Part shown: positions 7,091-62,288 of the stretch, piece by piece
How the letters are laid out: each line of letters opens with the position of its first letter
Position numbering within the stretch: the stretch's first letter is position 1
NCBI GenBank assembly: GCA_024278215.1
Contig: JAJRTR010000011.1
Location: 29,787-93,786, forward strand
From: a bacterium
GTDB lineage: Bacteria; UBP15; UBA6099; JAJRTR01
Length of the DNA: 64,000 nucleotides
Direction: 5' to 3'
Notes under the pieces: model-generated
Database searches by the model: none
Seen by the model: the letters and a program-made list of their open reading frames with translations, nothing else
What the model was told of the DNA's origin: nothing
Position numbers and translations under genes: made by a program

Positions 7091-7269
7091 GAGCCAATTG
7101 CAAAATTCTGATTCGGCTGCGGTCGGCTGCAATTGTCCATAGCTGCGTTGTCGGCGCAAAATCATCCTCAACGTACTCCACGAGTACGCCTGCGGGGATT
7201 TTGCACTTCCGCCTTGCTTCTGAATAATTTCGTTCGACCTCGCTTCGAACATAATTTTGCAATTGGCTC
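7091..7269 (-). repeat. 179-bp palindromic interspersed repeat, copy 1 (family P179, reverse orientation)
   Basis: Full-length copy in reverse orientation. The ends are inverted: GAGCCAATTGCAAAATT at the left and its complement at the right. The middle contains an inner stem around CGTACTC...GAGTACG. Four other long copies occur at 13897, 28736, 60509 and 62110. It fills most of the 319-base gap between the zinc-ribbon gene and the diguanylate cyclase gene and separates the rpoN group from the chemosensory operon. Confidence 0.9.
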
Positions 7270-7303
7270 GTATAAGTTCGCTTTTCGTTTGCTGTTTCCC
7301 CCA

Positions 7304-7576
7304 TCAATCCGCAGTTGCAGTCGCCTCTTCAGGTTCGATCGTATAGCCGCAATAGGGGCAGAACGGTTCATACTCACTGACGGGCTTTCCACATTTCACG
7401 CAGTCGAACTTTGCGATTTTTGTGGACTCGTGTTTCCCCTTTGCGTCGTCCACGCAGGTTCCGGATTCGTCTGCCGTATTCTCTCTCTTCGCTTTCAGAT
7501 ACCTGTTTGCCCCATAACCGATACCAAGAGCGGCGGCTGTTCCTGCGATGACAGCGAGCCAGGTGCGGTTCATCAT
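7304..7576 (-). CDS. small membrane-anchored zinc-ribbon protein
   Basis: 90 residues: an N-terminal hydrophobic helix (about 6-22, WLAVIAGTAAALGIGYGA), a short charged linker, then a C-terminal zinc ribbon with two CxxC pairs (FDCVKCGKPV and PFCPYCGYTI) and an acidic tail. The start ATG overlaps the stop of the large TPR/Ig gene (ATGA), so it is co-transcribed with that gene and rpoN. A second ATG follows immediately, so the first residue is uncertain by one. Function unknown. Small zinc-ribbon anchors often act as scaffolds or adaptors, and the tight link to the large TPR protein suggests they work together, but that is inference. Confidence 0.75.
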   Translation of the reverse strand: MMNRTWLAVIAGTAAALGIGYGANRYLKAKRENTADESGTCVDDAKGKHESTKIAKFDCVKCGKPVSEYEPFCPYCGYTIEPEEATATAD

Positions 7577-10500
7577 TCTCTCCTTCCCCTGCCCCGTTTG
7601 TTTTTAGCGCCCTGCATCAGCCTGCATTTTTCCCGGAGCACATTCCTTTTCGCCGCCGCCGCCTGGTAACTCGGGTCATGTTCAAGAATCCGCTCGAACT
7701 GCTTCATCGCCGAGCAATAGTCCTGCTTCTGTTCGAACGCCTGCCCGTATGAGAACAGGGCGTCCGTGTCGCTTGGTTTAATCACAAGCAGTTTCTCGAG
7801 ATCACTTATCGCCTGGTTTATTTCCGATTCCGCTGTCTGCAGATCGTTCCTTTTCTCGGCGCGTTCCGAGTTCTGGATGTGTATGTTCGCCATCTTATTG
7901 AGAATTCCAGGCCTTTCCGGGTCGACAGCGTGTGCTTTCATGCCGGCTTCGATAGCTTTTGCGTAATTGTTGTTGTTCTCATATTGTAATGCCTGCCGGT
8001 AGTACCACTGGTATATAACGATCTTATGTGTGAATATGTATAATATTCCCATGCCCATCAGAAATACTACGAGCAACCCGATTTTAATTATCTTGGGCAT
8101 GAGTTGCTCCATTTCGACCATGGCCTTCTTTCCGACCTCTATCTCGAATGTTGGGATTGCATAAGGATTATCTTCTCCGTCATCAATATATGTCTCAATG
8201 TCTTCTTCATAAGTATCTTCAGCAGTGGTATTTTCAACAGCGTATTGATCGTCCGTCATGGTCTGATCGTCCATAGCTGCTCCTTCCTGTGAGTAGTCCG
8301 GCAGCGCTGCTTCAGGCTGGTAATCAGGCTGTTCCCCGGGCATAGGCGGCGGACCGTCCGGCTGCGTAGAATCCGGTTCCTCGAAAGCGGGAGCAGGCGC
8401 GACCGGCATTTGCGGCGCGAAGTCCTCGCCTGCCGTTGTATAGTCCGGCCCGGCGGCGGGAGGCGGCGCGAAATCGTCAGCAGGCATAGCAGGCGCTTCC
8501 GGATAATCCGCCGGTTCGGTATAGTCTCCCGCGGGCACCGGGGGCGGCGGTTCGTCGGGGCCGCCGCCTGTTTGACTCGCGAGAAACGCCTGCGGGTCCT
8601 CTATGCCGCCGGGCGCGGAGACATAGTCGTTGTCAACCGCCGGTGCGACAGGTTCCGTGTAGCTCTCTTCGCTGTATTCTTCCTGGTATTCCGGTGCCGG
8701 CTCTTCATATATTTCCGCCGGCTGATCGCCATACACCGCAGGGTCGGTATATTCAGGCTCGTAGTCCGCACCGGCATCCTGCGCATGCTGCGCCGCATAT
8801 CCGGCGGATGAATCTATTGTTGTCAGTATTGCTTTTCTGATAGAGAAATCTCCGACGTTTGGATTCGACGCCGTAATCGTTATCGAGTCGCCGATCGATG
8901 ACGGCGCTGTATATGATGTCGTAACTTCTCCGTTATCGTCGCTAAGGGTCTGCGCCTGCTCGCCGAGTGCGCCGGGAGCGCCTGTGTATCCATCCATCGA
9001 GATCGCAACGAATTCGCCGGGTACGGGATTATCGAATGTATCGGTTATTCTTGCAGCAATATCTATTGTTTCGCCGGGTTCGAGTTCGAGTTTCGGCGCG
9101 ATTATTTCTATCATTTCGGGTGCGCCGGGCGCGACATTTATTGTTATACTGTCAGCGGTCGCGCCCGATGAAATATTTACCGTAAAGCTGCCGCATGTGC
9201 CGGAGGTTTTTACATGTGCCACGGCTTCTCCCGAAAGATCGGGCTCGACATCCACGAAGCGTCCGCTTTCCACGCCGCCCGGCGCGAGCATGACTGCCGC
9301 CGCACCCGGGCCTATATCTTCGATCAGTTCAAACCTTACTATGTCCGACGACGGCGCTCCGTCACTGTGCTTCGCGGTTATTTTGATCGGTACTACCTCT
9401 CCCGCACAGCAGGCAAGAGATTCATCGGGTTTTATGAAATATATATCGCCGCCCGTAGCCTGTACCTGCTCCTGCGGCGGAGAAAACATATCCGGTTCAG
9501 AATAGTCTTTTGTCGGCTCGAACGCCGGTTCCGAATCATCGGGCAGCGGGAATGAATTGTCGAATTGCGCGGTCGGCTGCGGTTCGTCGAATGAAGGTTC
9601 TTCAACTGCGGTTGAATATTGGTCTTCGCCGGGCTGTGTGTCGTCAGGGAGTACGAACAAGTCATCAGGCGCAGCATCGGCAACCGGTTCCGTATAGGTA
9701 TTTGACGGGGCGGTCAGCTCATCCGCACCGGCATCAACAACGTCGAATTGATCCTGTGGCGGCGCAGCTTCCTCGTCGAGCATCGAGCCGAGCACATCGA
9801 GAGTGCTGCCGCCGGGCACCGGTTCAGCATGTGCGGGAGGGGCGACAGGTGGAGACTCCGGAACGTCCGTATCGTCCGTATATGAGGACGCAGCGCCGGC
9901 GGCATCGTAGTCGAGGCTGTCGAACCCGCCTGCTTCTTCGTTTTCAGGCGCGAATTCATCGACAGTGGCGGGTTGGTCCGCGGGTGCGTAATCCTGCGAG
10001 GCGGTTTCTCCCGCCATATCCGGCAGTCCTGCGAGGCTGTCACCGCTCAGTTCCACATCGAGAAGATGTGGGTCGTGCGATGCGGGTGGCTCGTCGTCGA
10101 ACTCACCGCCGAACTCGTCATATACGACTTCATCGGCTGTTTGCGAACTCTCTGCCCCGACTGTTTCCACACGGGACCGCGCTGTAATCGTTGCAGGCAG
10201 GTATTCGGACCGGGGCGCGAACACGGCGGTCGCCCCGGCAGTGCCGGGCGCTGTCACATTTACCGTAATTCCGCCGTCCATTCCCGTAGTTGCCGAAGAT
10301 GCTTCTGAAAGCAGCCATTCGCCGCCACTGGATTCTTCTATTATGATCGTTGCCGGGACGCCGTCTATCGGGTTGTCGTACTCGTCTAGCAGTCTCATCT
10401 TTATCGCGAATTGTTGTCCGGGCACAACCGTTGTTTCGGCAGGGATGAACATCGCAAAGTTCGCTTGTCCGGGTACAACATTGAATTCGACATTGTCTTC

Positions 10501-11577
10501 AAAACCGGTTGTTTTGCACGCTACTTCGAATCTGCACCTGGTGTGTCCGCGTGTCGGCATGCGGAATACGCGCGTGAGCCGGCCGGTACCGTCGGTTTTT
10601 ATATTATCATTATCTACGACTTCCCACTCGGTCTTTGTCTGCATCTGCAACGACAACGCCAGTTCGGTATCCGCAACCGGATTATCGAATTCATCGTAAG
10701 CCTCGATGCGGAATTCGACTTCCTGCGCTGTCCGGTACTGGTTGCCGCGCGGTGAAATCTCCACCCTTGCAATATCCGCCGCGTGTGTATTGTCTTCGAA
10801 AAACTGAGGCGGAAGTTCATCGGTTTTTATTTCTATTTTGTTCGAGCCTGCAATCTTTGATCTTCTGAAGAATATCTTTGCTTTTCCGTCGTTGTCGGTT
10901 TTCAGGTGGAGTTCGTCGGGGCCCTGTTCGGCGTTCGCGCGCTCGGGAGTCAGGGCGATGAAGGCATCCTGAAGTCCCTGGTCGCAAACCAGTTTGAAGC
11001 ATACAGTTGCCTGGGCGACGGGGATGTCCCTGTCGCCCAGAACAGTTGCGGACACGGAGTCATAGGACCATACACGTGAGGAAATGTTTTCCAGGGCAGG
11101 TTCGATGATAAGTTTTACAGGCTTAAGGCCGACCTGGCCGCGCGGCCTGTCGATGGCGGGCCTTGTGGCAAGGTCCACCGGGGAACCTTCCGCCGGTGCG
11201 GCTATTCCTGATGCGGCGGTGATTCCCGGGTCGAGATTCTGATCGTTGCCGGTGGCGCCGTCTTTGTCTGAAGCGGATTTCTTGTATTCCGCTACTGCCT
11301 TGCCCAGCGGTCCCGAAAGGAGCGAATCGAGTCCGGCATCAATATGTTGTGTCGCATAAGATGTGTTCAGTTCGATCGCTTTCTTGTACATCTGATAAGC
11401 TTCGTCTTCGAGTTTTTTTTCTTCGAGGGTTTCAGCAAGATGATAATAGGCAGCCGAATACTCCGGCTCGAGGTTGATCGCCTTCCGGAAATTGGCTATA
11501 GCCTCGTTGTATTTCTGATCCTTGGTCAATGTGTTGCCAAGTGTGTGAAATTTTACTGCCCGTGGGTCAAGAGACAT
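7573..11577 (-). CDS. very large TPR / Ig-like (Big_1-type) protein with one transmembrane helix
   Basis: 1334 residues. N-terminal TPRs (about 1-100: YNEAIANFRKAINLEPEYSAAYYHLAE), then at least four Ig-like modules of the invasin/Big_1 type recognisable by repeated EAYDEFDNPV, RLLDEYDNPI and RITDTFDNPV segments, separated by very acidic, Pro/Gln/Ala-rich disordered stretches (about 480-720 and 920-1130). A single hydrophobic helix (about 1160-1180, IKIGLLVVFLMGMGILYIFTH) is followed by more TPRs (about 1190-1310) and a basic tail. There is no N-terminal signal peptide, so how the Ig modules would cross the membrane is unclear. It lies 8 bases after rpoN and overlaps the small zinc-ribbon gene. 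Function unknown; a scaffold or surface-assembly role is possible. Confidence 0.8.
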   Translation of the reverse strand: MSLDPRAVKFHTLGNTLTKDQKYNEAIANFRKAINLEPEYSAAYYHLAETLEEKKLEDEAYQMYKKAIELNTSYATQHIDAGLDSLLSGPLGKAVAEYKKSASDKDGATGNDQNLDPGITAASGIAAPAEGSPVDLATRPAIDRPRGQVGLKPVKLIIEPALENISSRVWSYDSVSATVLGDRDIPVAQATVCFKLVCDQGLQDAFIALTPERANAEQGPDELHLKTDNDGKAKIFFRRSKIAGSNKIEIKTDELPPQFFEDNTHAADIARVEISPRGNQYRTAQEVEFRIEAYDEFDNPVADTELALSLQMQTKTEWEVVDNDNIKTDGTGRLTRVFRMPTRGHTRCRFEVACKTTGFEDNVEFNVVPGQANFAMFIPAETTVVPGQQFAIKMRLLDEYDNPIDGVPATIIIEESSGGEWLLSEASSATTGMDGGITVNVTAPGTAGATAVFAPRSEYLPATITARSRVETVGAESSQTADEVVYDEFGGEFDDEPPASHDPHLLDVELSGDSLAGLPDMAGETASQDYAPADQPATVDEFAPENEEAGGFDSLDYDAAGAASSYTDDTDVPESPPVAPPAHAEPVPGGSTLDVLGSMLDEEAAPPQDQFDVVDAGADELTAPSNTYTEPVADAAPDDLFVLPDDTQPGEDQYSTAVEEPSFDEPQPTAQFDNSFPLPDDSEPAFEPTKDYSEPDMFSPPQEQVQATGGDIYFIKPDESLACCAGEVVPIKITAKHSDGAPSSDIVRFELIEDIGPGAAAVMLAPGGVESGRFVDVEPDLSGEAVAHVKTSGTCGSFTVNISSGATADSITINVAPGAPEMIEIIAPKLELEPGETIDIAARITDTFDNPVPGEFVAISMDGYTGAPGALGEQAQTLSDDNGEVTTSYTAPSSIGDSITITASNPNVGDFSIRKAILTTIDSSAGYAAQHAQDAGADYEPEYTDPAVYGDQPAEIYEEPAPEYQEEYSEESYTEPVAPAVDNDYVSAPGGIEDPQAFLASQTGGGPDEPPPPVPAGDYTEPADYPEAPAMPADDFAPPPAAGPDYTTAGEDFAPQMPVAPAPAFEEPDSTQPDGPPPMPGEQPDYQPEAALPDYSQEGAAMDDQTMTDDQYAVENTTAEDTYEEDIETYIDDGEDNPYAIPTFEIEVGKKAMVEMEQLMPKIIKIGLLVVFLMGMGILYIFTHKIVIYQWYYRQALQYENNNNYAKAIEAGMKAHAVDPERPGILNKMANIHIQNSERAEKRNDLQTAESEINQAISDLEKLLVIKPSDTDALFSYGQAFEQKQDYCSAMKQFERILEHDPSYQAAAAKRNVLREKCRLMQGAKNKRGRGRRE

Positions 11578-11585
11578 GTTCTGTT

Positions 11586-13016
11586 TTACGCCCTCCTGCG
11601 TTCATACGATGATGGAATTCTCAGTTCTTCTCTGTACTTTGCGACAGTTCTTCGGGCAAGTTTGATGCCTTTCTCAAGCAAAATATCGCGTATGCGATTA
11701 TCTGAAATAGGCTTCTTCGCATCCTCGTTGAAGATGAGGTTTTTTATATATTCCTTAGGCCGGATGGAAGAGTCGAAAAAGAAATCGAAACTGAATATTT
11801 CGCCCGATGGAACCCGGATGAATTTTCCCGACATTGCCCTTGAAACCGTCGATTCGTGCAGTTCGATTTTTTCCGCGAGCCGTCCTTGCGTCAGTTCAGT
11901 ATTGAAATTGGGTAATCCCTTAATGAGGAATTCCGCCTGCTCCTCACATATCGCTTTTGCTATTTTGTCGAGTGTCTGCTTCCTCTGCTCGATGCTGTCC
12001 TGGTAGAACTTTGCGCGCCTGAAATATTCTCGGACATGGCTCATGTCTTTTCGAGTTATCTCTGTATTGCCCTGCTTGTATGACCTGTACATGTCGAGAT
12101 ATGTGCTGTTTATCCTGAGCCTGAAATCCGCAAGTTCGAGAACTTCATAGCTGAGCGCCTTTCCGTCATACCGTATCTCTATCGCCGGTTTTGCCAGTTG
12201 CACAGCATCGGTGCTGCGGCCCATATAAGCACGGCCCGGATAAGGGTTCAGGTTTCTGCGTATGAAATCAAGTGTTTCCCTGACACGGCTGACGGGCACT
12301 TCAAGTTCCGTGGCGATTCTCTCATATCTATTTTTTCCGAGGTTTTCGAAGTGCTGATCGATTATCCTTTCCGCGAGTTCGCAGCCTTTTCCTTCCTCGG
12401 CCAGTACGTTCAACTGTATCAGAAGCGCTTCGCGTGCGTCGCGCGCCCCGACACCCGCAGGCTCCAGCGTCTGGATCACTTTCACCACTTCATCAATCAC
12501 CTCGGGCGTGGTCTCAAACATATCGGCAATTGCTGTTTCATCATACGTGAGGAACCCGTCTTCGCTGATCGAGTGCACCAGGAATTCGCCTAGTTCTTTT
12601 GTGCCTTCAGGATATTCGGACGCAAGGAAATTGAGTGTGAGATAATCTCTGAATGAAGTCTCGCGCGATGTGAAACTGGTAAAAGATGTCGCGTCTTCTC
12701 TCTCGCCGATCGGCCCCTCGTAGGGTGCGCTGTCGCCGTCATATTCCATAATTCTCTGCTGGATGAATTGCTCTGTCTGTTCCTCCTCCAGATTGTCTTT
12801 CCTTCCGCAATGTTCGCATCGTGTGCCGTTCATGGGTCTTCCGCAGTGAGGGCATGTAACGATATTTTCGATCTCGAGGGCCGGGTTCTCGCTCAGTTCC
12901 TTCTGTATCTCCTGCACAAGCTCGATTACCGGCATCTGCAAAAGCTGCTGCGATTGGATAAACTGCGGACTAAGGGTTTGTATCTGCTTAAGCGATGTGA
13001 CCAGCTTGATTTCCAA
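11586..13016 (-). CDS. rpoN: RNA polymerase sigma-54 factor with an inserted zinc ribbon
   Basis: 476-residue sigma-54, which directs transcription from -12/-24 promoters and needs enhancer-binding ATPases. Region I is typical (LKQIQTLSPQFIQSQQLLQMP, Gln/Leu-rich). The core-binding region holds EPAGVGARDAREALLIQL. The C-terminus carries the helix-turn-helix (LHESTVSRAMSGKFIRVPSG) and an exact RpoN box (ARRTVAKYREELRIPSSYERRR). Odd feature: between Region I and the core-binding domain is a CX2C-X8-CX2C zinc-ribbon motif (Cys55, 58, 67, 70; CPHCGR...CEHCGR) that ordinary RpoN proteins lack. It is the first gene of the minus-strand group that continues into the TPR/Ig protein. Confidence 0.95.
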   Translation of the reverse strand: MEIKLVTSLKQIQTLSPQFIQSQQLLQMPVIELVQEIQKELSENPALEIENIVTCPHCGRPMNGTRCEHCGRKDNLEEEQTEQFIQQRIMEYDGDSAPYEGPIGEREDATSFTSFTSRETSFRDYLTLNFLASEYPEGTKELGEFLVHSISEDGFLTYDETAIADMFETTPEVIDEVVKVIQTLEPAGVGARDAREALLIQLNVLAEEGKGCELAERIIDQHFENLGKNRYERIATELEVPVSRVRETLDFIRRNLNPYPGRAYMGRSTDAVQLAKPAIEIRYDGKALSYEVLELADFRLRINSTYLDMYRSYKQGNTEITRKDMSHVREYFRRAKFYQDSIEQRKQTLDKIAKAICEEQAEFLIKGLPNFNTELTQGRLAEKIELHESTVSRAMSGKFIRVPSGEIFSFDFFFDSSIRPKEYIKNLIFNEDAKKPISDNRIRDILLEKGIKLARRTVAKYREELRIPSSYERRRA

Positions 13017-13303
13017 GACGCCTGCTCCGGTTCCCTTACATGCAAAACTAATTAAGTTTTATGAACTTAATCATTAGATATATATACACACATCATGCTG
13101 TCGGCTAAACATAATTCTACAAAACACATGCCATCCGATCAAGCTTTATTATGATTTATACATACGGAATTACTGTATTTTCCCTGCATTCAGGATGATC
13201 TTTCGTTATGTTACGTCGCCTCCGCGCTGTAATCCGGGAAATCATTTATACGAATCGGATTGCCCCGGTATCGGGAAAAAGATAAAATATATGTGACACA
13301 ATT
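13017..13303. other. intergenic region between rpoN and nikR
   Basis: AT-rich spacer that must hold the divergent promoters for rpoN (minus) and nikR (plus). I see no gene, no clear -12/-24 element and no obvious operator. A repeat fragment begins at 13304. Confidence 0.5.
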
Positions 13304-13353
13304 GTCGACAATTGCAGCCGACCGCAGCCGAATCAGAATATTGCAATCGGCTC
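13304..13353 (+). repeat. P179 right-end fragment in front of nikR
   Basis: About 50 bases matching the right end of the 179-bp repeat (GTCGACAATTGCAGCCGACC ... TTGCAATCGGCTC), ending 21 bases before the nikR start codon. It therefore forms part of the nikR leader. Confidence 0.8.
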
Positions 13354-13374
13354 AAGGAAAATGAGGCACGATCT

Positions 13375-13791
13375 ATGGATGGAGTTTCCAGGTTCAGCGT
13401 TTCAATACCGCATGATCTTCTCGGGAAGTTTGACATGTACCTGAAGGAAAAAAGGTATCAGACACGGTCCGAGGGCATCAGGGACCTGATGCGTAATGCC
13501 CTGATTGCAGAAGAATGGGATGACCCCGCGGCGGAAGTAATGGGTACGATATCAATTGTATACGATCATCACACGAGAGAACTTGATGAAAAATTGAAAG
13601 AGATACAACACGCCCATTATGAAGGGATAATTTCCACGACGCATGTGCATGTGGATCATCATAACTGTTTCGAGGTCATGCTGGTTCGCGGCCGGGCGGA
13701 TGCCATCCGCAAGATCGGCAATATGCTCATCAGCGCCAGGGGCGTCAAGGTGGGCAGGATCACACTTTTAAGCACTGGAAAGAACATTTAA
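13375..13791 (+). CDS. nikR: NikR-type nickel-responsive ribbon-helix-helix repressor
   Basis: 138 residues, the usual NikR length. The N-terminal ribbon-helix-helix DNA-binding domain (about 1-45: VSRFSVSIPHDLLGKFDMYL) is followed by the ACT-like metal-binding, tetramerization domain. The nickel site residues are all present: His in STTHVHVDHHNCFEV gives the His-x-His...Cys arrangement of the high-affinity square-planar site. The start is ATG 13375, with TGAGG eight bases upstream; an in-frame ATG further upstream lies in repeat-derived DNA and is rejected. No nickel importer, hydrogenase or urease genes are nearby, so its targets are elsewhere. The leader overlaps a P179 repeat end. Confidence 0.93.
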   Translation: MDGVSRFSVSIPHDLLGKFDMYLKEKRYQTRSEGIRDLMRNALIAEEWDDPAAEVMGTISIVYDHHTRELDEKLKEIQHAHYEGIISTTHVHVDHHNCFEVMLVRGRADAIRKIGNMLISARGVKVGRITLLSTGKNI

Positions 13792-13896
13792 AGAGAAAAA
13801 ATCTTCAAACACGTTAAAATAGCATACTTTAGCGCACAATAGGATATTTATTTTACTCGACTATTTCGAACTTTCATAGTATTATATAGTCTAATA

Positions 13897-14074
13897 GAGC
13901 CAGTTGCAAAATTATGTTCGTAGCGAGGTCGAGCGAAATTGTTCAGAGCAAGGCGGAGGTGCAAAATCCTCGCAGGCGTACTTGTAAAGTACGTCGAGGA
14001 CGATTTTATGCCGACAACGCAGCTATGGACAATAGCAGCCGACCGCAGCAGAACCAGAATTTTGCAATTGGCTC
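13897..14074 (+). repeat. 178-bp palindromic interspersed repeat, copy 2 (family P179)
   Basis: Full-length forward copy between nikR and the next gene, from GAGCCAGTTGCAAAATTATG to TTTTGCAATTGGCTC. It is one base shorter than the other copies (a missing base near TTGTTC-AGAGC), which breaks the reading frame that stays open in copies 1, 28736 and 62110. Confidence 0.9.
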
Positions 14075-14148
14075 TAATAATATGTAAGATTTGCAATGTG
14101 CTCGAAAGTGTGATGTTTGAATTATACGTTTTTCCGGGAGGATTCGGC

Positions 14149-15096
14149 ATGAAGAGAAACATCTGTATATCAATATTGATTATTTCATTATTGCTGGTTT
14201 TCGGGGCAAAATCGGCCAGGGTGTGTGCGACGGAATTCGAGGTGGCCACGGCCCCGGTTTCCGTAGCGGTGATCGACACCCGGACAGCAGTCGAAGATAT
14301 CACAAGAGCAAAAACAATGATCGAGTCGGAAAACGCGGGAGCAGATGAATTGAAAATGCTCATCGGACATGCAATGCACGTCCTGAGAGGTCCGTTGCCC
14401 AATGGAAAGGGCTATCATCTCGCTACGGTCGATATGGGCGACGATGTCGAGAACACGAACCTTATGAGCGTAAAGATCGACGCAATATGGGAACTCGGAC
14501 AGAAGAAAACCATAACTGCCGAGTTGTCTTCGGTATATAAATTTATTATTTATTCACCGCTTCACAGGGGATTCTTCAAGAATAACGGTAACTTCTACCT
14601 GGACTCCTACACTGTGGAATATACGATAAATGGAATCACCGAATCGAAGACTGTCGAGTACAAGGACTGGATTACAAGAGACAGCACACTTGAGGTTCCG
14701 CTTCCGGGAATAGCGGAATGGGCGAAGCTCGAACTGGTAGTCGGTGTCGAACCGGCGGACGTAAACAACGCGATTTTACAGATTTATGCCAGACAGCCTG
14801 TCGTGGACGATGACCCCAAGAATCCATTTTCGTATTCCATTTCGATGCTTGCCGAAGCGAAAGATAGAATCGAGATCGGCAGACGCCTCAAAGAAATCGA
14901 GAAATTTCTCGACGAAGCCCTGCTCGGCATAAAAGTCGCAAAGACTTATGCCGCAGATGCGTCTGTTGTCGCCGGGGGACGTGGAATCTCCGTGCAGGAA
15001 CTCGAACGTATCCTCTACTTGCTTGAAGGCAACGCGCTCGAAAACGATGAAGGTGTAGAGGAATTAAAAACACTGCTTGAGAAACAAAAGAAGTAA
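14149..15096 (+). CDS. secreted protein of unknown function
   Basis: 315 residues. The start ATG 14149 has GGGAGGA seven bases upstream. A clear signal peptide (MKRNICISILIISLLLVFGA, probable cleavage near ARVCA-TEF) indicates export. The mature part has a mixed alpha/beta middle (about 75-215), a conserved-looking WAKLELVVGVEPADVNNAIL stretch, and a helical C-terminus (about 235-315) with many Glu/Lys. I recognise no domain. It is flanked by a full P179 repeat upstream and a P179 right-end fragment 27 bases downstream, so the gene sits between repeat copies. Real gene by signal peptide and ribosome site; function unknown. Confidence 0.75.
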   Translation: MKRNICISILIISLLLVFGAKSARVCATEFEVATAPVSVAVIDTRTAVEDITRAKTMIESENAGADELKMLIGHAMHVLRGPLPNGKGYHLATVDMGDDVENTNLMSVKIDAIWELGQKKTITAELSSVYKFIIYSPLHRGFFKNNGNFYLDSYTVEYTINGITESKTVEYKDWITRDSTLEVPLPGIAEWAKLELVVGVEPADVNNAILQIYARQPVVDDDPKNPFSYSISMLAEAKDRIEIGRRLKEIEKFLDEALLGIKVAKTYAADASVVAGGRGISVQELERILYLLEGNALENDEGVEELKTLLEKQKK

Positions 15097-15122: not shown

Positions 15123-15162
15123 GGAGCCGATCGCGGCGAAAACAGGATATTGCAGCCGGCTC
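15123..15162 (+). repeat. P179 right-end fragment, degenerate
   Basis: About 40 bases resembling the right end of the 179-bp repeat (GAGCCGATCGCGGCG ... GCAGCCGGCTC), starting 27 bases after the stop of the secreted-protein gene. Confidence 0.65.
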
Positions 15163-28691: not shown

Positions 28692-28735
28692 CTTCGTCAA
28701 TAAAACGCCACTCCCGCGAAAGCGGAAGTCTATTT

Positions 28736-28914
28736 GAGCCAGTTGCAAAATTATGTTGGAAGTGAGGTCGAGCGAAATTGGTCTAAAGCAAGGCGGAGGT
28801 GCAAAATCCCCGCAGACGTACTTGTAGAGTACGTCGAGGAAGATTTTGCGCCGACAACGAAGCTGTTAACAATTGCAGCCGACCGCAGCCGAATCAGAAT
28901 TTTGCAATTGGCTC
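28736..28914 (+). repeat. 179-bp palindromic interspersed repeat, copy 3 (family P179)
   Basis: Full-length forward copy 45 bases after ruvA, with ends GAGCCAGTTGCAAAATTATG and TTTTGCAATTGGCTC. The reading frame is open throughout (SQLQNYVGSEVERNWSKARR...), but that is not conserved in all copies. Confidence 0.9.
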
Positions 28915-28939
28915 ATTTAAATATCCCGGTTTTCTTTTT

Positions 28940-29163
28940 TAGTATCTTACGACTGAAATGCTACGCAGGATGGTAAAGAAATGCTGAAAAGAGATCGGGG
29001 AAAGCTGGAGCTTCCAGTAACAGGCGTTTCCAAGGTAAACCTTGGAAACGATGAAACTCTGTGTGCCGTGCTCAAACCGTAGACCGTGCGTGTGCCGTGC
29101 TCAAACCGCATTTGTTTGGGCACGAAAATGCGGCCTGTTTGGTTCCGGCTACGCCGGGTTAGG
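28940..29163 (+). repeat. 195-bp repeat (family R195), longer copy with internal 29-bp tandem duplication
   Basis: Matches 60286-60480 at most positions, from TAGTATCTTACGACTGAAAT to GGTTCCGGCTACGCCGGGTT. It is 29 bases longer because a unit beginning GTGCCGTGCTCAAACC is duplicated in tandem (around 29070-29110). It sits 49 bases before argG and forms its upstream region together with P179 copy 3. No coding capacity seen. Confidence 0.85.
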
Positions 29164-30496: not shown

Positions 30497-30585
30497 GAAC
30501 TTGTGCGATTTTATAAAAGGTAGTGCCATGTCAACAAAGAAAAGATGTAAGATGGGGTAGCGTAAAAACTGTAAAAGTGTAGAGC
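30497..30585 (+). repeat. segment repeated in inverted orientation at 60111-60198
   Basis: From GAACTTGTGCG through GGTAGTGCCATGTCAA and AAGATGTAAGATGGGGTAG, this stretch matches the complement of 60111-60198 with few differences. A further piece (GTCAACAAAGAAAAGA) recurs at 60970-60985. No open frame is shared. Confidence 0.75.
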
Positions 30586-37927: not shown

Positions 37928-37994
37928 GAGCCAATTGCAAAATTCCGGTTCCGCCGCGGCAGGCGGCAATTGTCCCTGGCCCCGTTGCCGGTAA
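37928..37994 (-). repeat. P179 right-end fragment, reverse orientation
   Basis: GAGCCAATTGCAAAATTCCG and following bases match the right end of the 179-bp repeat in reverse orientation for about 65 bases, then the match is lost. Confidence 0.7.
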
Positions 37995-39189: not shown

Positions 39190-39253
39190 GAGCCATTTGC
39201 AACATTCTGATTCCGCTGCGGCCTCGCTACGAACATAATTTTGCAATCGGCTC
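39190..39253 (-). repeat. P179 internally deleted copy (64 bp)
   Basis: Both ends of the 179-bp element are present in reverse orientation (GAGCCATTTGCAACATTCTG ... CATAATTTTGCAATCGGCTC), joined directly with about 115 interior bases missing. It lies 19 bases after the radical SAM/SPASM gene. Confidence 0.75.
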
Positions 39254-45380: not shown

Positions 45381-46268
45381 TTGAAAGAATATCTCCCCAG
45401 AAAAAGTTTCCTGACGAAATCCGGTGTTGTCCTTTCCATCGTTTTGCATATTCTCGTGTTCTCGATCCCGGTAGCGCTTGTCGTCAGGCCGCCCGACCCG
45501 AATAAGGAGAGAAAAGTCGAACTCATCTTCGAAAAACCCCGGCAACAGGCACCAAAACCAAAGCCCGCGCCTCCGAAACCAAAGCCAAAACCGAAACCCG
45601 TGCGAAAAATCAAACCGCGACCAAAACCGCCGCCTGAGCCGCCTGAGCCGAAACAGCAAGCCGCCGAGCCGAAATCGCCCATCGAGGCCGCTGTAGCCGA
45701 CGCAGGCGGCATCGACATCCCCACCGGACCCGCTTATGAAGAAGTGTATGTGCCGCCGCCTTATGTTCCCGCATGTGGAAACGGCGTGCTCGACGACGGC
45801 GAAGAATGCGACGATGGCAACACCACAGACGGCGACGGCTGCGCTGCCGGGTGCGCACTGGAATATACCCCCGGTTGCGGCAACGGTGTGCTGGACGCGG
45901 GCGAAGAATGCGACGACGGCAACAACGCAGACGGCGATGGCTGCTCCGCCGGGTGCCTCGATGAAGTCTATAGGCAAAACCTGCTTGCCGAATATCAGAA
46001 AAGCATACTTCTGACAATTGAACGGAATAAGAAATACCCGCCGGCGGCGCGGCGGCGCGGCATACAGGGAGCGGCGAAAGTTAGATTCGACATCGCGGCA
46101 GACGGAGCAGTCAGCGGCGTCGCGCTCGACAAAACTTCCGGGTACGACATACTCGATCGTGAAGCCCTCGCCACCATCACTCGCATAGGCCGCTTCGCCC
46201 CCATTCCCGAACCGCTCGATATGCCGCGGATGGAGATTTCCGTTGCCATCGTTTTCCGGCTCCAGTAA
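45381..46268 (+). CDS. tonB: TonB protein with two Cys-rich repeats inserted before the TonB C-terminal domain
   Basis: 295 residues from a TTG start, no good alternative. One N-terminal transmembrane helix (about 14-35) is followed by a Pro/Lys-rich rigid linker (about 52-90, many KP and PP pairs), then two tandem 27-residue repeats (132-158 and 166-192), each with four Cys in the pattern [27 protein letters not shown], which is the Myxococcus Cys-rich repeat. A TonB C-terminal domain follows (about 205-295: [20 protein letters not shown]). TonB transmits energy to outer-membrane receptors. The Cys repeats in the periplasmic span are very unusual and could form disulfides or bind metal. Lies directly after exbB-exbD. 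Confidence 0.9.
45774..45956 (+). repeat. two tandem Cys-rich repeats coded within tonB
   Basis: Positions 45774-45854 and 45876-45956 encode the two 27-residue repeats. They agree closely at the DNA level too, with eight cysteines in total and DDGN/DGDG acidic loops of the kind found in secreted myxobacterial proteins. Confidence 0.85.
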
Positions 46269-55133: not shown

Positions 55134-55156
55134 TAACCGAGCGGGTTTTATATCGC

Positions 55157-55190: not shown

Positions 55191-55193
55191 CAA

Positions 55194-56741
55194 TTATGAA
55201 GCGCGGTCGGCCTGCCGCCGGCCGGTTGCGCATGACATGATCTTTTCCTGGGTGGCGTCCTCGCGTGAGAATTCGCCGGTTATCGTGCCCTCGTGCATGA
55301 CGAGTATACGGTCGCTCATGCCCAGCACTTCGGGCAAGTCGGATGAAATCATAATGATGCAGACACCCTGCTCGACAAGCTTGTTCATTATCTGGTATAT
55401 CTCGAACCTCGCGCCTACATCCACGCCGCGAGTGGGTTCGTCGAGTATCAGGATTTTCGGTTTGTTGGCGAGCCATTTGCTTATAACGACCTTCTGCTGA
55501 TTGCCCCCGCTGAGCGTATTGACAATCACGTTCTGCCCGCTGGTTTTTATATTCAGTTCGTGTATATATTTGTCGACGAGTTTTTTTTCCTCTCCGGGTT
55601 TTATTATTTGCGAAGCGGAGACTTTGTCGAGCGCGGCGAGCGATGTGTTCTCTTTCACGCTCATAATGAGAACGAGCCCGAAGCGCTTGCGGTCTTCCGT
55701 GACGAGTCCGATGCCGCTTCTGATGGCATGTTGCGGATTTTTTATGTCGACCTGTTTCCCCTCGATAAAAAGCTTGCCTGCCGTGTTTGCGGGGAAAGCG
55801 CCGAACATGGCGGTCACAATCTCCGAGCGGCCCGACCCCATGAGGCCGGCCATGCCGAGTATCTCACCTTTGTGTGCTGTGAACGATACATTCTCGACGA
55901 TCTTTTCGCCGGGAAGGAACGGATTCGCGACATACATGTTTTCGACCCGGACGGCCTCTTCGCCGATTTCGGCATTTCTGTCGGGATAAAGTTGTGTGAG
56001 TTCGCGCCCGACCATGAGCGAAACAAGTCGGTCGTTGTCCAGTTCGCTCACTGGTAATGTCGCGACCGTTTCTCCATCGCGCAGCACAGTGGCGCTGTCG
56101 CATATCTCGAAAATCTCGTCGAGTTTGTGGGAGATATAGATCATGGTGACACCGCGTTTTTTCAAGTCGCGGATAATTTCAAAAAGGGTCTTGATCTCCA
56201 TTTCCGTCAGGGCGCTGGTGGGTTCGTCGAGCACAAGTATGTCCGAGCTCACCGAGAGAGCTTTTGCGATCTCGACCATCTGCTGCCTGCCCACCGAAAG
56301 ATCTTTTATGAGCGCGGAGGTCGAAATATCTATGTTAAAGGAAGAGATGAGTCCGGCTGCTTCCTCGTTCATTTTTTTTCTGTCGATGAAGCTGAGCGGT
56401 GGTTTTACCGGTTCACGACCAAGGAAAATATTTTCCGCGACAGTGAGTTCCGGTATCAGGTTTAGTTCCTGGTGGATGATCGAAACGCCTGCTTTCTCTG
56501 CTTCGCGTGTGCCGGAAAAGCGGCGTAGTTCGCCTTTGATTATCAGTTCGCCATCATAAGACGGGTACGGATGCACGCCGGAGAGCACTTTCATAAGAGT
56601 GGATTTGCCTGCGCCGTTTTCGCCCACGAGCGCGTGCACCTCGGCTTTCACCGCGCTGAAAGTCACATTTTTCAGCGCGATCACACCCGGAAACTTTTTC
56701 ACAATTCCCTTCATTTCGAGAACTGTATCCTGCTGTGCCAT
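55194..56741 (-). CDS. sugar ABC transporter ATP-binding protein (XylG/MglA/RbsA type), orphan
   Basis: 515 residues, two fused ATPase domains. Domain 1: GENGAGKST, signature [15 protein letters not shown], Walker [15 protein letters not shown]. Domain 2: degenerate Walker [10 protein letters not shown], signature [28 protein letters not shown]. The pattern is that of carbohydrate-importer ATPases for xylose, ribose or galactose. GGAGGG before the ATG is strong. No permease or periplasmic binding protein gene is adjacent in the window (the next gene upstream is a DUF5665-type protein), so it probably serves a transporter encoded elsewhere or a lost operon. Substrate not deducible. Confidence 0.92.
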
Positions 56742-56769
56742 TTTCCCTCCGTGTAAAACGGTGTCGAAT

Positions 56770-57165
56770 TCAGGGTTTAAAATTGGGGCTTGTGCCCACC
56801 TGCTCCTGGACGATTTGATATATGTCCGCGATCAGGCCGCCGATGAGCGGGAGGTTGACCATGTGTGCCAGAAGGTACATTGTGAGTCCGAGCAGCACTG
56901 TCATACCGAGCCCGAAACCCAGCCCGCGCGCCAGGCCCCACAGAAAGTTAGTGTACCATATACGGCCCGGCCGGGTCACCATATCGAGATATTCGACAAA
57001 CCGCATTCTTTCCATCATCATCGCCAGTTTGTGCAGGTTGCGCACAGTGTCTGTGTCGAGTTGTACAATCTCCCGGGGCTCCGGAATGGAAAAAGTGCGT
57101 GTCTCGGTGTTCTGGTTTCTATCGCTGTTGTCCGGTATGTGATCAGACAAAAAAATCATCTCCAT
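56770..57165 (-). CDS. DUF5665-type membrane protein
   Basis: About 131 residues from ATG 57165 (MEMIFLSDHIPDNS); a TTG at 57198 overlapping the preceding stop would add 11. The first half is charged (TVRNLHKLAMMMERMRFVEYLDM). One or two membrane helices (about 70-112, FLWGLARGLGFGLGMTVLLGLTMYLLAHMV) follow, then an amphipathic end. The YLDMVTRPGRIWYTNFLWGLARGLGFGLG pattern is typical of DUF5665. It is close downstream of the MBL-cNMP-hemerythrin gene, almost overlapping, so the two are probably co-expressed. Function unknown. Confidence 0.75.
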   Translation of the reverse strand: MEMIFLSDHIPDNSDRNQNTETRTFSIPEPREIVQLDTDTVRNLHKLAMMMERMRFVEYLDMVTRPGRIWYTNFLWGLARGLGFGLGMTVLLGLTMYLLAHMVNLPLIGGLIADIYQIVQEQVGTSPNFKP

Positions 57166-57194
57166 GCTGAATATATAGTGAACCGGTTGCAAAA

Positions 57195-59789
57195 TCAAAA
57201 TATTCCGTGTCCGTTCATAACAGCAGTATATTTCTTATCAACAACCAGGGTGTGGTTGACAAGCCAGTCTTTGAGGAAATCCAGGAACTCCATGCCGGTA
57301 ACCGCTGTCCCGGATGAGAACCTTTTCCCGAAACTGTCAATATCCTGCATAAGCCTTTTGTGTTCTTTCGCGTGATAATCCAGGTCGTGGTAGCCGCATT
57401 TTTTCATGAGCGTTTCTTCCCTGCTGAAAAGGAAGCCGGCATATTCGGTGAGTTCGCCGAGCTTACCTATAAAAAAAGACTTGTCGCTCAGGTGTGTGAA
57501 AGCCTCACAGAGATTGTTTACCATCTCGAACAGAACTTTGTGCTGTTCGTCGAGTTCACGGACATTTACACTGTAATCTTTTTTCCAGGCAAAAGCGAAA
57601 TGTGCGCCGAAAGCACGCATCCTTTTTTCGAAAGTCTCGAAAAGCTTCCACTGAATATTCGGTATCTCGGCGAGCGCCTCACCGGGAATCCTGAAGCAGG
57701 CGGAGTCCTGCGTTGCCCTGGCCTTGAAAAAACTCGCTGTATCGAAGAGCACACTCTCCTCGCCGACAAAACCGCCGCGGCCAAGTGTTTCGATAATCTT
57801 GTTTTCGGAATAAACCTGTATCTCACCTTCAGCGATCAGGATCAGTTCCGCGCCGTTGCCGTCGGGCAGCAACTCGCCTTCGCGGAAAACAGTTTTCTCC
57901 ATCAGGCGGGCGATCCGGTTCTGCATCGGGTAGGAAACCATTTCGCCGAAGAGCCAGGTGCCGAGCAGGAAGCGCCTGTTCTCGTGTGCCCTCATGATGT
58001 CGTAGTACATATTGTTGCGCTTCACGAATTCCAGGTAGATGTCGCGCGGTATCTCGATAGCCTGGACATAGCTGTCCGCGCGGAAAGTGCCGCCGGACTT
58101 ATCGCCTCTCATGCCTGAAATTTCACCGGCGAGTGTGCCCGCGGAGAGCATGTTTTTTATAGTTGTCTCCGATTCGATGTACTCGACAACACCCGTGAGA
58201 ATAAGATAAATGCGTTTATTGACGGCACCGCGTTTGAGAAGAATCGTGCCGGGATTGAGGTTTATTATCGGGAAGTTAAGGATCGTTCTCAGCTCGTGGT
58301 CGGGCGCTGTGGGGAAGTATGAACGCAGGAAACGAAAAGCAGCCTGCATCTTGTAGTCCTGCCGGGCGGCAATGAGGACATCCTGCGTGCCGAAAGATGT
58401 GCTCGATCCGATTTCCTTTTCCCTGTCGGTGAGTTCGCGCGCAGTGTGGCTCAACAAGATTTTACCCGATGTATCGTCGATAAAATCTTCGGCCGCGCCG
58501 TGCACAAGACCGCCGCCGATGTCAATCTTCTTGAGGTCGACCGGTACAAGGTACTGCTCTTTGACGCTGTCGAAATATTCCTGCGTTATCCCGCTTTCGG
58601 AGTCATCGCCCGTGATCATGTCGCCAAGTACTTTAAATGAAGCGATGTCGGCCATGTGCGCATAAGTTTTATATCCGTTCTCCCAGAACGAGCGGAAAAA
58701 GAAAATGTTGGTTTCAACAGGATGGGGCGAAAGAACGGGTTTCACTTCGAGCCCGTCGATGTTGTTCCAGACGTCGAACTCCAGGTCGTGTATCTCGAAA
58801 TACCTCGAGAAGCGTTCTTCGCTCATGGACATGAGCGCTGATAGCTTTTTAGCAACGGATTCGCGAACAAGCGGAGTAGCGAAATATTTTATCATGTGGT
58901 CGGAACGAACAATCGAAGTGAGACTGGCGAAATGGTCGTCGTGGCAATGGGTATGAAATATGCCGTCGATCTCGCTGACACTGATACCGAGAGCCGTGAG
59001 GCTGTGCATGATATTCGGGCCTGCGTCTATAAGATAAAGCTTTCCCTGAAACGAAATTATACTGCCCATGCAAGGACGTGTGAAGTCCCAGCCGTTGCCC
59101 TCTCCAATGTGTATTACCGAAAAGTACTCTTTTCGTATTTTGTGAAACCCGAGAATGTATGCGGATTCGTATCGCTCACCGCGGGCAAGGTTGAGGTCCA
59201 CGGTCATGGACCTGTTGCCGTAATATATTTCGTATACGTTGAACCTTCTTCTGCGTATGAACGCGCCGTCCCTGAGTTCCACTTTTTCTTTGTCTACGAT
59301 TCTCACGTCGAGCAGGTCTTCAGTGCGGCTGATCCTGTCGAATGCAAACTTGATCTTTATGCGCATCATGTCGCGAGCGGCAGGCTCGTGTATGCCGGTC
59401 TTCATTATTTCATCTTTGGAAGTAAGGCCGTAGTTGCCGCGAAAGATGTAAGTGCTCTGCGCTTCGACCTGGTTTTTAATGCCGATCAGCATCGGTTTGC
59501 GGCCCGTGTTATTGGGATGATCCGGAATTATCAACCCCTGCCTGTAGAACATCTGGAGAACCGGGAATTCAGCGAGATTGGAGAAATCGCCTTTCTGCAC
59601 CGACACATCCGACAGCAGTATTGCGTTGGGACCTGTTTCGAAGCTGGTGCCGTCTTTTTCTTTCCCCGTGATCAGCCCGCGTTTCATCATATGCTTCACT
59701 ATATCCGCCGGGCAACCGCACAGCACAAAAAGATCGATCTCCGGGATGCCGATCCAGTATACACCTGCTGTAAGTTTTATCTTTTCCAT
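57195..59789 (-). CDS. metallo-beta-lactamase-fold / cyclic-nucleotide-binding / hemerythrin fusion protein
   Basis: 864 residues from ATG 59789 (AAGGGG five bases upstream; an earlier in-frame start lacks one). An unassigned N-terminal region (about 1-220) is followed by a metallo-beta-lactamase fold (about 225-450) with THCHDDHF metal motif (His281, His283, Asp285, His286) and LVHG/LLSHTARE later ligands. Two cyclic-nucleotide-binding-like domains follow (about 510-610 and 625-725: LNPGTILLKRGAVNKRIYLIL and FREGELLPDGNGAELILIAEG). Last is a hemerythrin domain (about 735-864) with DEQHKVLFEMV, FSREETLMKKCGYHDLDYHAKEHKRL and WLVNHTLVVDKKY, the His/Glu/Asp di-iron set. No membrane helix. Likely senses O2 or redox and a cyclic nucleotide. 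Confidence 0.88.
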   Translation of the reverse strand: MEKIKLTAGVYWIGIPEIDLFVLCGCPADIVKHMMKRGLITGKEKDGTSFETGPNAILLSDVSVQKGDFSNLAEFPVLQMFYRQGLIIPDHPNNTGRKPMLIGIKNQVEAQSTYIFRGNYGLTSKDEIMKTGIHEPAARDMMRIKIKFAFDRISRTEDLLDVRIVDKEKVELRDGAFIRRRRFNVYEIYYGNRSMTVDLNLARGERYESAYILGFHKIRKEYFSVIHIGEGNGWDFTRPCMGSIISFQGKLYLIDAGPNIMHSLTALGISVSEIDGIFHTHCHDDHFASLTSIVRSDHMIKYFATPLVRESVAKKLSALMSMSEERFSRYFEIHDLEFDVWNNIDGLEVKPVLSPHPVETNIFFFRSFWENGYKTYAHMADIASFKVLGDMITGDDSESGITQEYFDSVKEQYLVPVDLKKIDIGGGLVHGAAEDFIDDTSGKILLSHTARELTDREKEIGSSTSFGTQDVLIAARQDYKMQAAFRFLRSYFPTAPDHELRTILNFPIINLNPGTILLKRGAVNKRIYLILTGVVEYIESETTIKNMLSAGTLAGEISGMRGDKSGGTFRADSYVQAIEIPRDIYLEFVKRNNMYYDIMRAHENRRFLLGTWLFGEMVSYPMQNRIARLMEKTVFREGELLPDGNGAELILIAEGEIQVYSENKIIETLGRGGFVGEESVLFDTASFFKARATQDSACFRIPGEALAEIPNIQWKLFETFEKRMRAFGAHFAFAWKKDYSVNVRELDEQHKVLFEMVNNLCEAFTHLSDKSFFIGKLGELTEYAGFLFSREETLMKKCGYHDLDYHAKEHKRLMQDIDSFGKRFSSGTAVTGMEFLDFLKDWLVNHTLVVDKKYTAVMNGHGIF

Positions 59790-60019
59790 ATCTGCCCCTT
59801 GCTTATGGCACCTCCTGTGAATATGGGCCGGCTTCCCCTCCCGAGACAATAAGGTATATTTTGCTGTTTCTCATGAACTGATGTGTAATTATATCCTGAA
59901 CTTGTGCGAATTCAGATATTTTGTAAGAATTTCGGGGACATGACTGGAATTTGTCCTTTAATTCCAGACCGTATCTCCTGAAATCCGGCTACTGTCTCGT
60001 CAGGCTTGTAATATCGCTG
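59790..60019. other. intergenic, left part of the 59.8-61.0 kb non-coding island
   Basis: No gene, operator or terminator recognised. Short stretches repeat locally (GGAATTTGTCCTTTAATTCCAG has inverted halves AATTCCAG/CTGGAATT around 59944-59968). Confidence 0.4.
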
Positions 60020-60115
60020 GTAGGGCTGGGGCACCGTACCCCGCCTGAACATATTTCTCGCGAAAACAGTTTGTACAGGCACAAGTTGAGGCGGGGTACG
60101 GTGTCCCAGCCCTAC
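60020..60115. repeat. long hairpin with 27-bp arms
   Basis: Arms at 60020-60046 (GTAGGGCTGGGGCACCGTAC...) and 60089-60115 pair over 27 positions with one mismatch, around a 42-base loop. A piece of the loop (CGCGAAAACAGTTTGT) is inverted again at 60249-60264. No coding capacity. It is immediately followed by the segment shared with 30497-30585. Confidence 0.8.
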
Positions 60116-60198
60116 ACTTTATAGTTTTTACACTACCCCATCTTACATCTTTTCTTTCTTGACATGGCACTACCCTTTTATAAAAAACGCACAAGTTC
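60111..60198 (-). repeat. inverted copy of the 30497-30585 segment
   Basis: Complement of the sequence beside the nucleotidyltransferase remnant, including CTACCCCATCTTACATCTTT and GCACAAGTTC at its right end. Confidence 0.75.
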
Positions 60199-60285
60199 AA
60201 AAATGTACTGAAGCGATTTAGCTATTATAATATGCAACCTTCACGTACACAAACAGTTTTCGCGTAATATATGCTTAGGGTCACT

Positions 60286-60480
60286 TAGTATCCTACGACT
60301 GAAATGCTACGCAGGATGGTAAAGAAACGCTGAAAAGAGATCGGTGAAAGCTGGAGCTTCCAGTTACAGACGTTTCCAATGTAGACCTTGGGAACGATGA
60401 AACTCTGTGTGCCGTGCTCAAACCGCATTTGTTTGGGCACGAAAATGCGGCCTGTTTGGTTCCGGCTTTGCCGGGTTAGG
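60286..60480 (+). repeat. 195-bp repeat (family R195), basic copy
   Basis: Counterpart of 28940-29163 without the 29-bp duplication, from TAGTATCCTACGACTGAAAT to GGCTTTGCCGGGTTAGG. As at the other locus it lies next to a P179 copy, in the opposite order (here R195 then P179; there P179 then R195). Confidence 0.85.
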
Positions 60481-60508
60481 CAAAGAATGAGGAAAAAACA
60501 GGACAATA

Positions 60509-60638
60509 GAGCCAATTGCAAAATTATGTTCGTAGCGAGATCGAGCGAAATTGTTCAGAGCAAGGCGGAGTTGTAAAATCCTCGCAGGCGTACTTGTAGA
60601 GTACGTCGAGGACGATTTCGCACCGACAACGCAGCTAT
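60509..60638 (+). repeat. P179 copy 4, right end replaced by an H23 hairpin
   Basis: Forward copy from GAGCCAATTGCAAAATTATG through the inner stem to GCAGCTAT, then it stops abruptly at an H23 element (60639). The right 45-50 bases are missing. It has the same one-base deletion as the copy at 13897. Confidence 0.85.
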
Positions 60639-60661
60639 CCCGCATATTTCACCAATGCGGG
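60639..60661. repeat. H23 hairpin repeat, copy 5 (inside/adjacent to a broken P179 copy)
   Basis: Arms CCCGCAT and ATGCGGG with loop ATTTCACCA, located exactly where P179 copy 4 breaks off. Confidence 0.8.
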
Positions 60662-61002
60662 CTAAAAATCGGGAGAATGCCTGTAATACAAGGCGTGGTA
60701 AATAAGTGGTGAGGGAGCAGCCGGCAACGTCGGCCTCTTGCGCAAAAAACGAGTGTGTGACCGATCCCGAATCGCCGCCGCAACGCAGTAGAATGGGGAT
60801 TCTCACGGTTTTCCGGATTTCTTTGTGAGAAATCCGGGTTAGACTTGTTTGCGGGTGTGCCAAAGTGATAACATAGACAGGGTGAATGCCGCCCCGTGGA
60901 CGTTCCGGCAATTTGTGCGGGTCGGAGATGCAGAATAATGATGAATCTGCGCCGATACTTTTGATGTCGTGTCAACAAAGAAAAGACGTATGGATTGGAA
61001 TT
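60662..61002. other. intergenic leader of the acyltransferase gene
   Basis: No gene recognised. A GTCAACAAAGAAAAGA piece at 60970-60985 repeats part of the 30497 segment and lies just upstream of the acyltransferase start. Confidence 0.4.
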
Positions 61003-61911
61003 ATGTCTGTCACAAGAACAATAATCATGCGAGCACTATTCTACACCATCTATATATTGTTGCGAGTGCTGCCGCGAAAACTTCAGGAAAAACTCGCCGA
61101 GTTGCTGGGCTGGTTTTTCTTCAAAGTGCTGCCCGGCCAGAAAGAACTTATGCTTTCCAATCTGAAGCGCGCGTTCAAAGACGAATACTCGCAGGAAGAG
61201 CTGGAGAGGATCGCACTGAGATCGCAGCAAAACATGATAAAAAGCGTGTTCGAGTTCGCGCGATTCCCGCTCTACAGTGAGAAAGACCTCGAGAGAATGG
61301 TCGAGGTGCCACCGGAGAGCGTGGAAAACATGAGGAAAGCAAGCGAGGCGGGCAAAGGGATCGTGCTTGCCAGCGCACATTTCGGGAACTGGGAGTTTCT
61401 CGCGTGGCGGATCGGCTCACTAGGCTATCAGATGACCGTCGTCGGGCGCGACCAGGAGGACAACCTGATCAACGACTTTATAGTGAAGCGCCGCACCAGC
61501 AAAGGGACAAAAAATGTGCCGCGCGGAGTGCCCATGTACGAGCACATGACAAACCTGCTAGCAAAAAATGAACTCGTCGGCCTCGTATCCGACCAGAACG
61601 CCGGCCCGCGCGGTTTATTTGTAGATTTCTTCGGCTCGAAAGTTTCAGCCTTCAAAGGCCCCGGCATGTTCGCCGTGCGCACAGGTGCCAGGATAGTGCC
61701 GGTTTTCATCGAGCGCCTCGGCTATGAAAAACACCGCGCATATTTATGCCCCGCTGTCGAGATAGAACCCACGGGCGATGCCGGTAAAGACGTTCTCGCC
61801 TTCACACAGGCATACACAACAGTTATCGAAGATTTTGTGCGCCGTTTTCCGGACCACTGGTTCTGGATTCACAAACGCTGGAAGACAAGTCCGCCCGGCG
61901 AAGAAGAATAA
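61003..61911 (+). CDS. LpxL/HtrB-family lysophospholipid or lipid A acyltransferase
   Basis: 302 residues from ATG 61003 (MSVTRTIIMRALFYTIYILL); ATG 61027 is an alternative, and the open frame further upstream is repeat-derived. An N-terminal membrane anchor helix (about 8-28) is followed by the catalytic core: SAHFGNWEFLAWR holds the His-x4-Glu pair (HFGNWE), the acyl-acceptor motif DQNAGPRGLFVDFFG and GPGMFAVRTGARIVPVF follow. The HX4E form is common in this family outside the enterobacteria. It probably adds a secondary acyl chain to lipid A, or acts on another lysolipid. An H23 hairpin lies 79 bases downstream. Confidence 0.9.
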   Translation: MSVTRTIIMRALFYTIYILLRVLPRKLQEKLAELLGWFFFKVLPGQKELMLSNLKRAFKDEYSQEELERIALRSQQNMIKSVFEFARFPLYSEKDLERMVEVPPESVENMRKASEAGKGIVLASAHFGNWEFLAWRIGSLGYQMTVVGRDQEDNLINDFIVKRRTSKGTKNVPRGVPMYEHMTNLLAKNELVGLVSDQNAGPRGLFVDFFGSKVSAFKGPGMFAVRTGARIVPVFIERLGYEKHRAYLCPAVEIEPTGDAGKDVLAFTQAYTTVIEDFVRRFPDHWFWIHKRWKTSPPGEEE

Positions 61912-61989
61912 TCATACGGGATCAAACACAACAGGCTCTTTTGTATTTTGCTCCTTATTTCACCTTAAGCAATAAAAAGTTGTTGCTAA

Positions 61990-62012
61990 CCCGCATTGGG
62001 GGAATATGCGGG
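61990..62012. repeat. H23 hairpin repeat, copy 6
   Basis: Arms CCCGCAT and ATGCGGG with loop TGGGGGAAT, 79 bases after the acyltransferase stop. Confidence 0.8.
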
Positions 62013-62109
62013 CTACTACATCTCTTCTGCTGCGTCTTTGAAATTCTATCATCTTCGTGCTACACTGTGTTCTCATAAGGACGGTTCTCCTTTTTGTAAA
62101 TTTACTTGT

Positions 62110-62288
62110 GAGCCGATTGCAAAATTATGTTCGTAGCGAGGTCGAACGAAATTGTTCGGGAGCAAGGCGGAGGTGCAAAATCCCCGCAGGCGTACTTGTA
62201 GAGTACGTCGAGGACGATCTTGTGCCGACAACGCAGCTGTTGACAATTGCAGCCGGCCGCAGCAGAATCAGAATTTTTCAATCAGCTC
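62110..62288 (+). repeat. 179-bp palindromic interspersed repeat, copy 5 (family P179)
   Basis: Full-length forward copy with a slightly decayed right end (TTTTTCAATCAGCTC instead of TTTTGCAATTGGCTC). The internal frame is open. Confidence 0.9.

Follow-up and report, generated by a model that had tools for sequence, protein, structure and literature searches.

P179 and neighbouring repeats in the window

The window, a 64,000-nt stretch of a bacterial genome (G000), carries argG, a lipid A acyltransferase gene and a radical-SAM gene, and contains dispersed copies of a palindromic element, P179, together with two other palindromic repeats, S and Q (Table 1). By its argG, this genome falls close to MAGs of candidate phylum UBP15. 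All five long P179 copies of the original prediction are found where it placed them, the copy at 60509 being truncated as claimed, and full copies show 88-90% identity to the copy at 28736. Its list of shorter pieces is partly upheld: those at 13304 and 37928 are right-end fragments, that at 39190 keeps both ends around an internal deletion and so is a shortened copy, not an end fragment, and blastn (E ≤ 1) finds no match at 15123. As had also been proposed, the outer ends are inverted, with GAGCCAATTGCAAAATT on both sides (GAGCC..GGCTC), and the whole unit folds as a single long hairpin, with a consensus folding energy of -85 kcal/mol as RNA.

Table 1. Copies of P179, matches to its core and neighbouring repeats in the window.
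Feature	Position	Strand	Remarks
P179, full copy	7091-7269	-	Target duplication GTAT at 7087-7090 and 7270-7273
P179, full copy (178 bp)	13897-14074	+	TAATA on both flanks
P179, full copy (179 bp)	28736-28914	+	Target duplication ATTT at 28732-28735 and 28915-28918; upstream of argG
P179, copy without right end	60509-60638	+	Stops exactly where element S starts (60639)
P179, full copy	62110-62288	+	Flanks TTGT/TTGA, a decayed 4-bp duplication
P179, right-end fragment (46 nt)	13308-13353	+	96% identical; blastn
P179, right-end fragment	37928-37973	-	85% identical; blastn
P179, internally deleted copy (64 bp)	39190-39253	-	Both ends kept; blastn
Core common to the superfamily (135 nt)	28758-28892	+	R1 covariance model
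Core match	7113-7247	-	R1 covariance model
Core match	13919-14052		R1 covariance model
Core match	60531-60665		R1 covariance model
Core match	62132-62266		R1 covariance model
Element S (about 200 bp)	60639-60838	+	IS1380-like ends CCCGCATATTTCACC..GAGAAATCCGGG at a TA-containing site
Element S, further copies	15406, 24034, 54313, 62335		
Repeat Q (GGGGTAGTGTAAAAACTATAAAAGTG..)	59962-60199		Palindromic; arms also at 30515-30575 and 60118-60178

Element S has the loop words ATACAAGGCG / CAACGCAGTAGA in common with P179's relatives; it scores below the threshold of the covariance model, and its resemblance to the superfamily described below is one of loop words only. In a 1.19-Mb sample of G000, S is represented by 75 matches to CCCGCATATTTCACCAATGCGGG, with a long form of about 205 bp and TTAA/CTAA sites. 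Repeat Q has at least 12 copies in the sample and is a P179 landing site.

Abundance and insertion of P179

P179 is highly abundant in G000, a fragmented MAG of 4.55 Mb in 207 contigs. In particular, its 17-nt end has 714 matches with at most 2 mismatches (353 forward and 361 reverse), against 0 for the reversed control pattern. The 1.19-Mb sample contains 86 full and 46 partial copies. At this density of 72 full copies per Mb, the whole genome would hold about 330 full ones. Several contigs of the assembly (for example, C135, C59, C62 and C182) terminate inside or beside a P179 copy; assembly is thus probably interrupted by the element, whose copy number may be underestimated. The length is 176-180 bp in nearly all 86 full copies, a range that maintains no reading frame and indicates no coding constraint; at under ~600 bp and without coding capacity, P179 has the size of a MITE. 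The copies share their end points, and neither of the readings that the original prediction had set against mobility, unshared ends and a segment under protein-coding selection, agrees with these results.

The flanks show how P179 inserts. An exact 4-bp target duplication is present in 47 of the 79 full copies with flanks, where mismatched pairs give an expectation of 1.2; the same copies include 2 duplications of 3 bp (2.7 expected) and 4 of 5 bp (0.24 expected). The reconstructed target is symmetric, Y/NWWN/R. Joining the flanks of P179 copies and searching G000 for the joined sequence reveals empty sites: the copy at C151:69249-69427 (duplication TTGT) lies inside repeat Q, seven copies of which are uninterrupted with TTGT present once, and the copy at C56:15469-15646 (duplication GTAA) interrupts a copy of repeat S whose sister copies have no insert. 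P179 therefore has the inverted ends, the fixed-length duplication and the empty sites that characterise MITEs, and the predicted movement as a unit is borne out.

Copies occur in both orientations, and no orientation preference beside genes is significant (++ 26, -- 15), which lends no support to a role in host transcripts. The prediction that P179 always lies between genes is nearly right: with a simple gene caller, 71 of the 79 copies are intergenic, 7 partly overlap a predicted gene and 1 lies inside one. The nearest-neighbour identity among copies is 87-99% (median 95%), and singleton changes fall evenly over paired positions (94 on 136, or 0.69) and unpaired positions (34 on 42, or 0.81), showing that the copies drift neutrally once inserted. 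Individual copies decay freely and so are not host genes.

A conserved interior fold

In a genome of the same order (G005), an element of 179 bp is present in three full copies; it has the P179 interior, different ends (GAGRCTCTAACAAAA, GAGRCTC) and 3-bp TNA flanks. Between this element and P179, the stems change in pairs (GGTCG/CGACC against GAACG/CGTTC) and the loop letters are unchanged. RNAalifold yields a poor structure on one alignment of copies (A2), probably because these are too alike, and consensus folds were used to define the structure. Two covariance models were used, R1 of the 135-nt core and a second, better model, R2. Members of the resulting superfamily fall into a long class (about 173-183 bp) and a short class (about 118-129 bp); their inverted ends beyond the modelled core vary. 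P179 itself matches the core over its full length, with covarying stems and purine loops.

When 48 members are aligned to R1 (A4), 87.3% of cells are paired, compared to 60.5 in shuffles; there are 488 double-changed cells, compared to 146 in shuffles and at most 144 with partners slid, and the covariation score is 0.656, compared to 0.198, although the alignment is fitted to the structure, so that pair counts favour the fold and the shuffled and slid controls correct for this only partly. The inverted end repeats, which lie beyond the model, are independent support for the fold. The internal loops repeat a purine pattern (GA x GCA, AA x GCA/GAA and GGA/GCA x GA), the last, apical loop has GA in 41 of 43 members, and one pair is mostly G.U (34 of 48 rows). 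Moreover, the plus strand has the better fold in 41 of 43 members with RNA parameters, in 40 of 43 with DNA parameters, and in 74 of the 79 P179 copies of G000. Members outside the training of the model (G600, G425 and G388) have the same loops, plus inverted ends beyond the model.

These alignments indicate that the interior is a constrained fold between lineages, and that the ends and the duplication length are exchangeable; the interior is more than whatever an IS happened to leave behind. Overall, P179 is very probably a non-autonomous, MITE-type DNA transposon whose interior is a member of the superfamily, with selection presumably acting on the fold of the source elements.

Distribution of the superfamily

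R1 matches 26 of 386 genomes, nearly always over the full length. R2 matches 157 of the 295 genomes around G176, in 103 of 195 genera. In a single phylum it matches 5 of 8 genomes, and one of these has 82 copies. At E ≤ 1, R2 has 0 matches in 561 kb from 80 named argG control loci. The plasmid and phage collections have no match. The elements of G388, G277 and G600 start with CCCGG, CCCGC or CCTGG and occupy YTAR sites, often with CTAG on both sides. In the short class, the outermost bases of members in G425 and G418 (L324-L332 and L342) vary by copy yet remain complementary (CAC..GTG, TAC..GTA and TTA..TAA), and inspection by eye shows no obvious direct duplications around the copies of these two genomes. 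Two contigs of a viral collection carry two members each (L267:9083-9214 and 13677-13801; L268:744-874 and 5419-5558), and in G137 the region between two tRNA genes holds two adjacent members that face opposite ways (L209:1281-1704).

Rfam 15 has no match in the window at gathering score; across 20 member loci at E ≤ 0.5, it identifies two tRNAs and one match below threshold, all lying off the elements. A search of the open literature found no description of the superfamily, and fragments with the loop words led, among the papers listed, only to unrelated ones. The superfamily of hairpins extends to more than 100 bacterial genera and is apparently undescribed.

Candidate transposases

Searches of G000, a fragmented MAG, with PF01609, PF05598 and PF13340 found no autonomous partner with P179 ends. 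PF05598 and PF13340 have no matches there; PF01609 matches three genes, one of IS4 type with ends CCAATACCGTTCAGTTAAGC and two that we take to be IS1634, and none has P179 ends. Further, the 1.19-Mb sample contains four pairs of inward-facing P179 ends that are 250-3500 bp apart, all without target duplications and with no transposase seen. The listed ORFs of two pairs encode a 403-aa protein, presumably dGTPase-like, and a 127-aa protein, presumably holo-ACP synthase-like; a third pair encloses the radical-SAM gene of the window.

IS1380 (PF13701), of which G000 has a C-terminal remnant only, was rejected as the mover of P179 itself: P179 has GAGCC... ends and 4-bp duplications at YNWWNR sites, whereas IS1380-type elements have CCCG ends and YTAR sites. 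Other superfamily members are linked to IS1380. In G277, a complete 459-aa PF13701 transposase (E = 1.3e-155) is followed by GTGGTGAGAAATGCGGGCTA, which is the end of the hairpin elements of that genome. The transposase element and the hairpin element are identical at 23 of 24 and 20 of 20 end positions, and the rest, their interior, is not common to both. G354 has a similar pair, with an IS1380 transposase remnant and a similar end (14 of 17). Based on co-occurrence and end identity, the IS1380 transposase is a candidate mover for the G277 branch.

Relation to known repeats

The Chunjie MITE of Geobacter uraniireducens is 178-235 bp long, with 38 copies that have conserved ends and direct repeats and 57 partial copies (PMC10969869). 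Like P179, Chunjie and other bacterial MITEs are small, non-coding, multicopy and mostly intergenic, with inverted ends, target duplications and a stable fold. Unlike bacterial MITEs generally, P179 has changing ends around an interior that is kept across lineages, in which stems covary and loops are fixed, and it reaches some 330 full copies. Chunjie may itself be a superfamily member.

Geobacter metallireducens has 24 copies of 'predicted short RNA elements' with the central palindrome GRCGTAGCGCTGCTACGCC, and such elements occur too in G. sulfurreducens, G. uraniireducens and Desulfotalea (PMC2700814). Like the superfamily, they are intergenic and multicopy and have a palindrome near the GGCGTA..TACGYC apex; the text considered describes a predicted RNA and gives no ends, duplications or structure for it, and the comparison is by palindrome alone. 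Palindromic multicopy sequences are also reported in G. bemidjiensis (PMC2996986). Earlier work may thus have come across some of the superfamily without recognising a single family.

Alternative explanations

The members could be ordinary IS-derived MITEs, with functionless interiors that are alike merely through recent spread between lineages. This agrees with their multiple copies, transposon ends, duplications and post-insertion drift, and with the IS1380 ends of one member type; however, recent spread would leave stems and loops equally similar, when the observed stems have compensating pairs and the mismatched loops keep their letters, and the IS1380 element and the hairpin element have an end alone in common. 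We consider the explanation improbable. A still smaller probability, and a low one, is given to mobility of the REP/BIME type, in which a tyrosine HuH transposase (RAYT or TIRYT) recognises the palindrome as a folded single strand and moves it. REP/BIME-RAYT systems comprise GTAG- and CGTC-tagged palindromes with units of 20-40 bp, and RAYT genes accompanied by long inverted repeats have been described (PMC3733652). Like P179, they are high-copy intergenic palindromes that are possibly folded single strands; recognition of this kind predicts a favoured strand and conserved internal loops, both of which are found here, and the short-class copies of G425 show no direct duplication evident by eye. 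In contrast, P179 is 179 bp long and lacks the GTAG tag, its 4-bp duplications are direct and exact, its empty sites hold a single copy of the target, and other members have YTAR duplications.

It is very unlikely that the members form a cis-regulatory or small RNA family in which every copy functions for its neighbouring genes, comparable to the short RNA elements predicted in Geobacter. The strong structural conservation and the mostly intergenic positions suit such a family, but in G000 the singletons are spread even over stems and loops, the orientation preference is not significant, copies insert into other repeats, and there is no Rfam match.

Proposed mechanism and significance

For P179 as a MITE-type element, insertion involves the whole unit of 176-180 bp with its constant ends, in either orientation, preferably at YNWWNR and with a 4-bp duplication. 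A DDE-type transposase acting in trans, whose gene was not found in G000, would cut the inverted ends with a 4-bp stagger. Selection would act on source elements for a folded single strand, either RNA or single-stranded DNA, with which the strand asymmetry and the purine mismatches fit. Purine (G.A) mismatches can pair in the sheared form in one strand, where the opposite strand has pyrimidine mismatches. A protein may recognise the fold via its repeated purine loops, or the fold may keep a long palindrome tolerable. The mismatches keep the double-stranded palindrome imperfect, which could aid its survival; this alone does not explain the fixed letters.

More generally, the superfamily may consist of bacteria-wide mobile hairpins in which a folded single strand, probably RNA, has a function of its own, for example if its purine loops bind a common protein, either cellular or a transposase, and in which transposases are swapped by changing the outer ends only. 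We put this forward tentatively, giving it somewhat less than even weight. Bacterial MITEs are usually viewed as decayed IS leftovers with an unconserved interior; here, the interior is conserved and the ends are exchangeable. If this is right, one widespread class of repeats gains a common origin and a searchable model, together with the question of what recognises the fold. With tens to hundreds of copies per genome, such elements are relevant to genome assembly and rearrangement.

Other repeats in the window

A pair of ~200-bp repeats, 94-97% identical and containing short hairpins, lies at 28939-29163, before argG, and at 60285-60480, before the lipid A acyltransferase gene. Further, two tandem 87-nt coding repeats at 45768-45956 resemble the repeats of cysteine-rich surface proteins.
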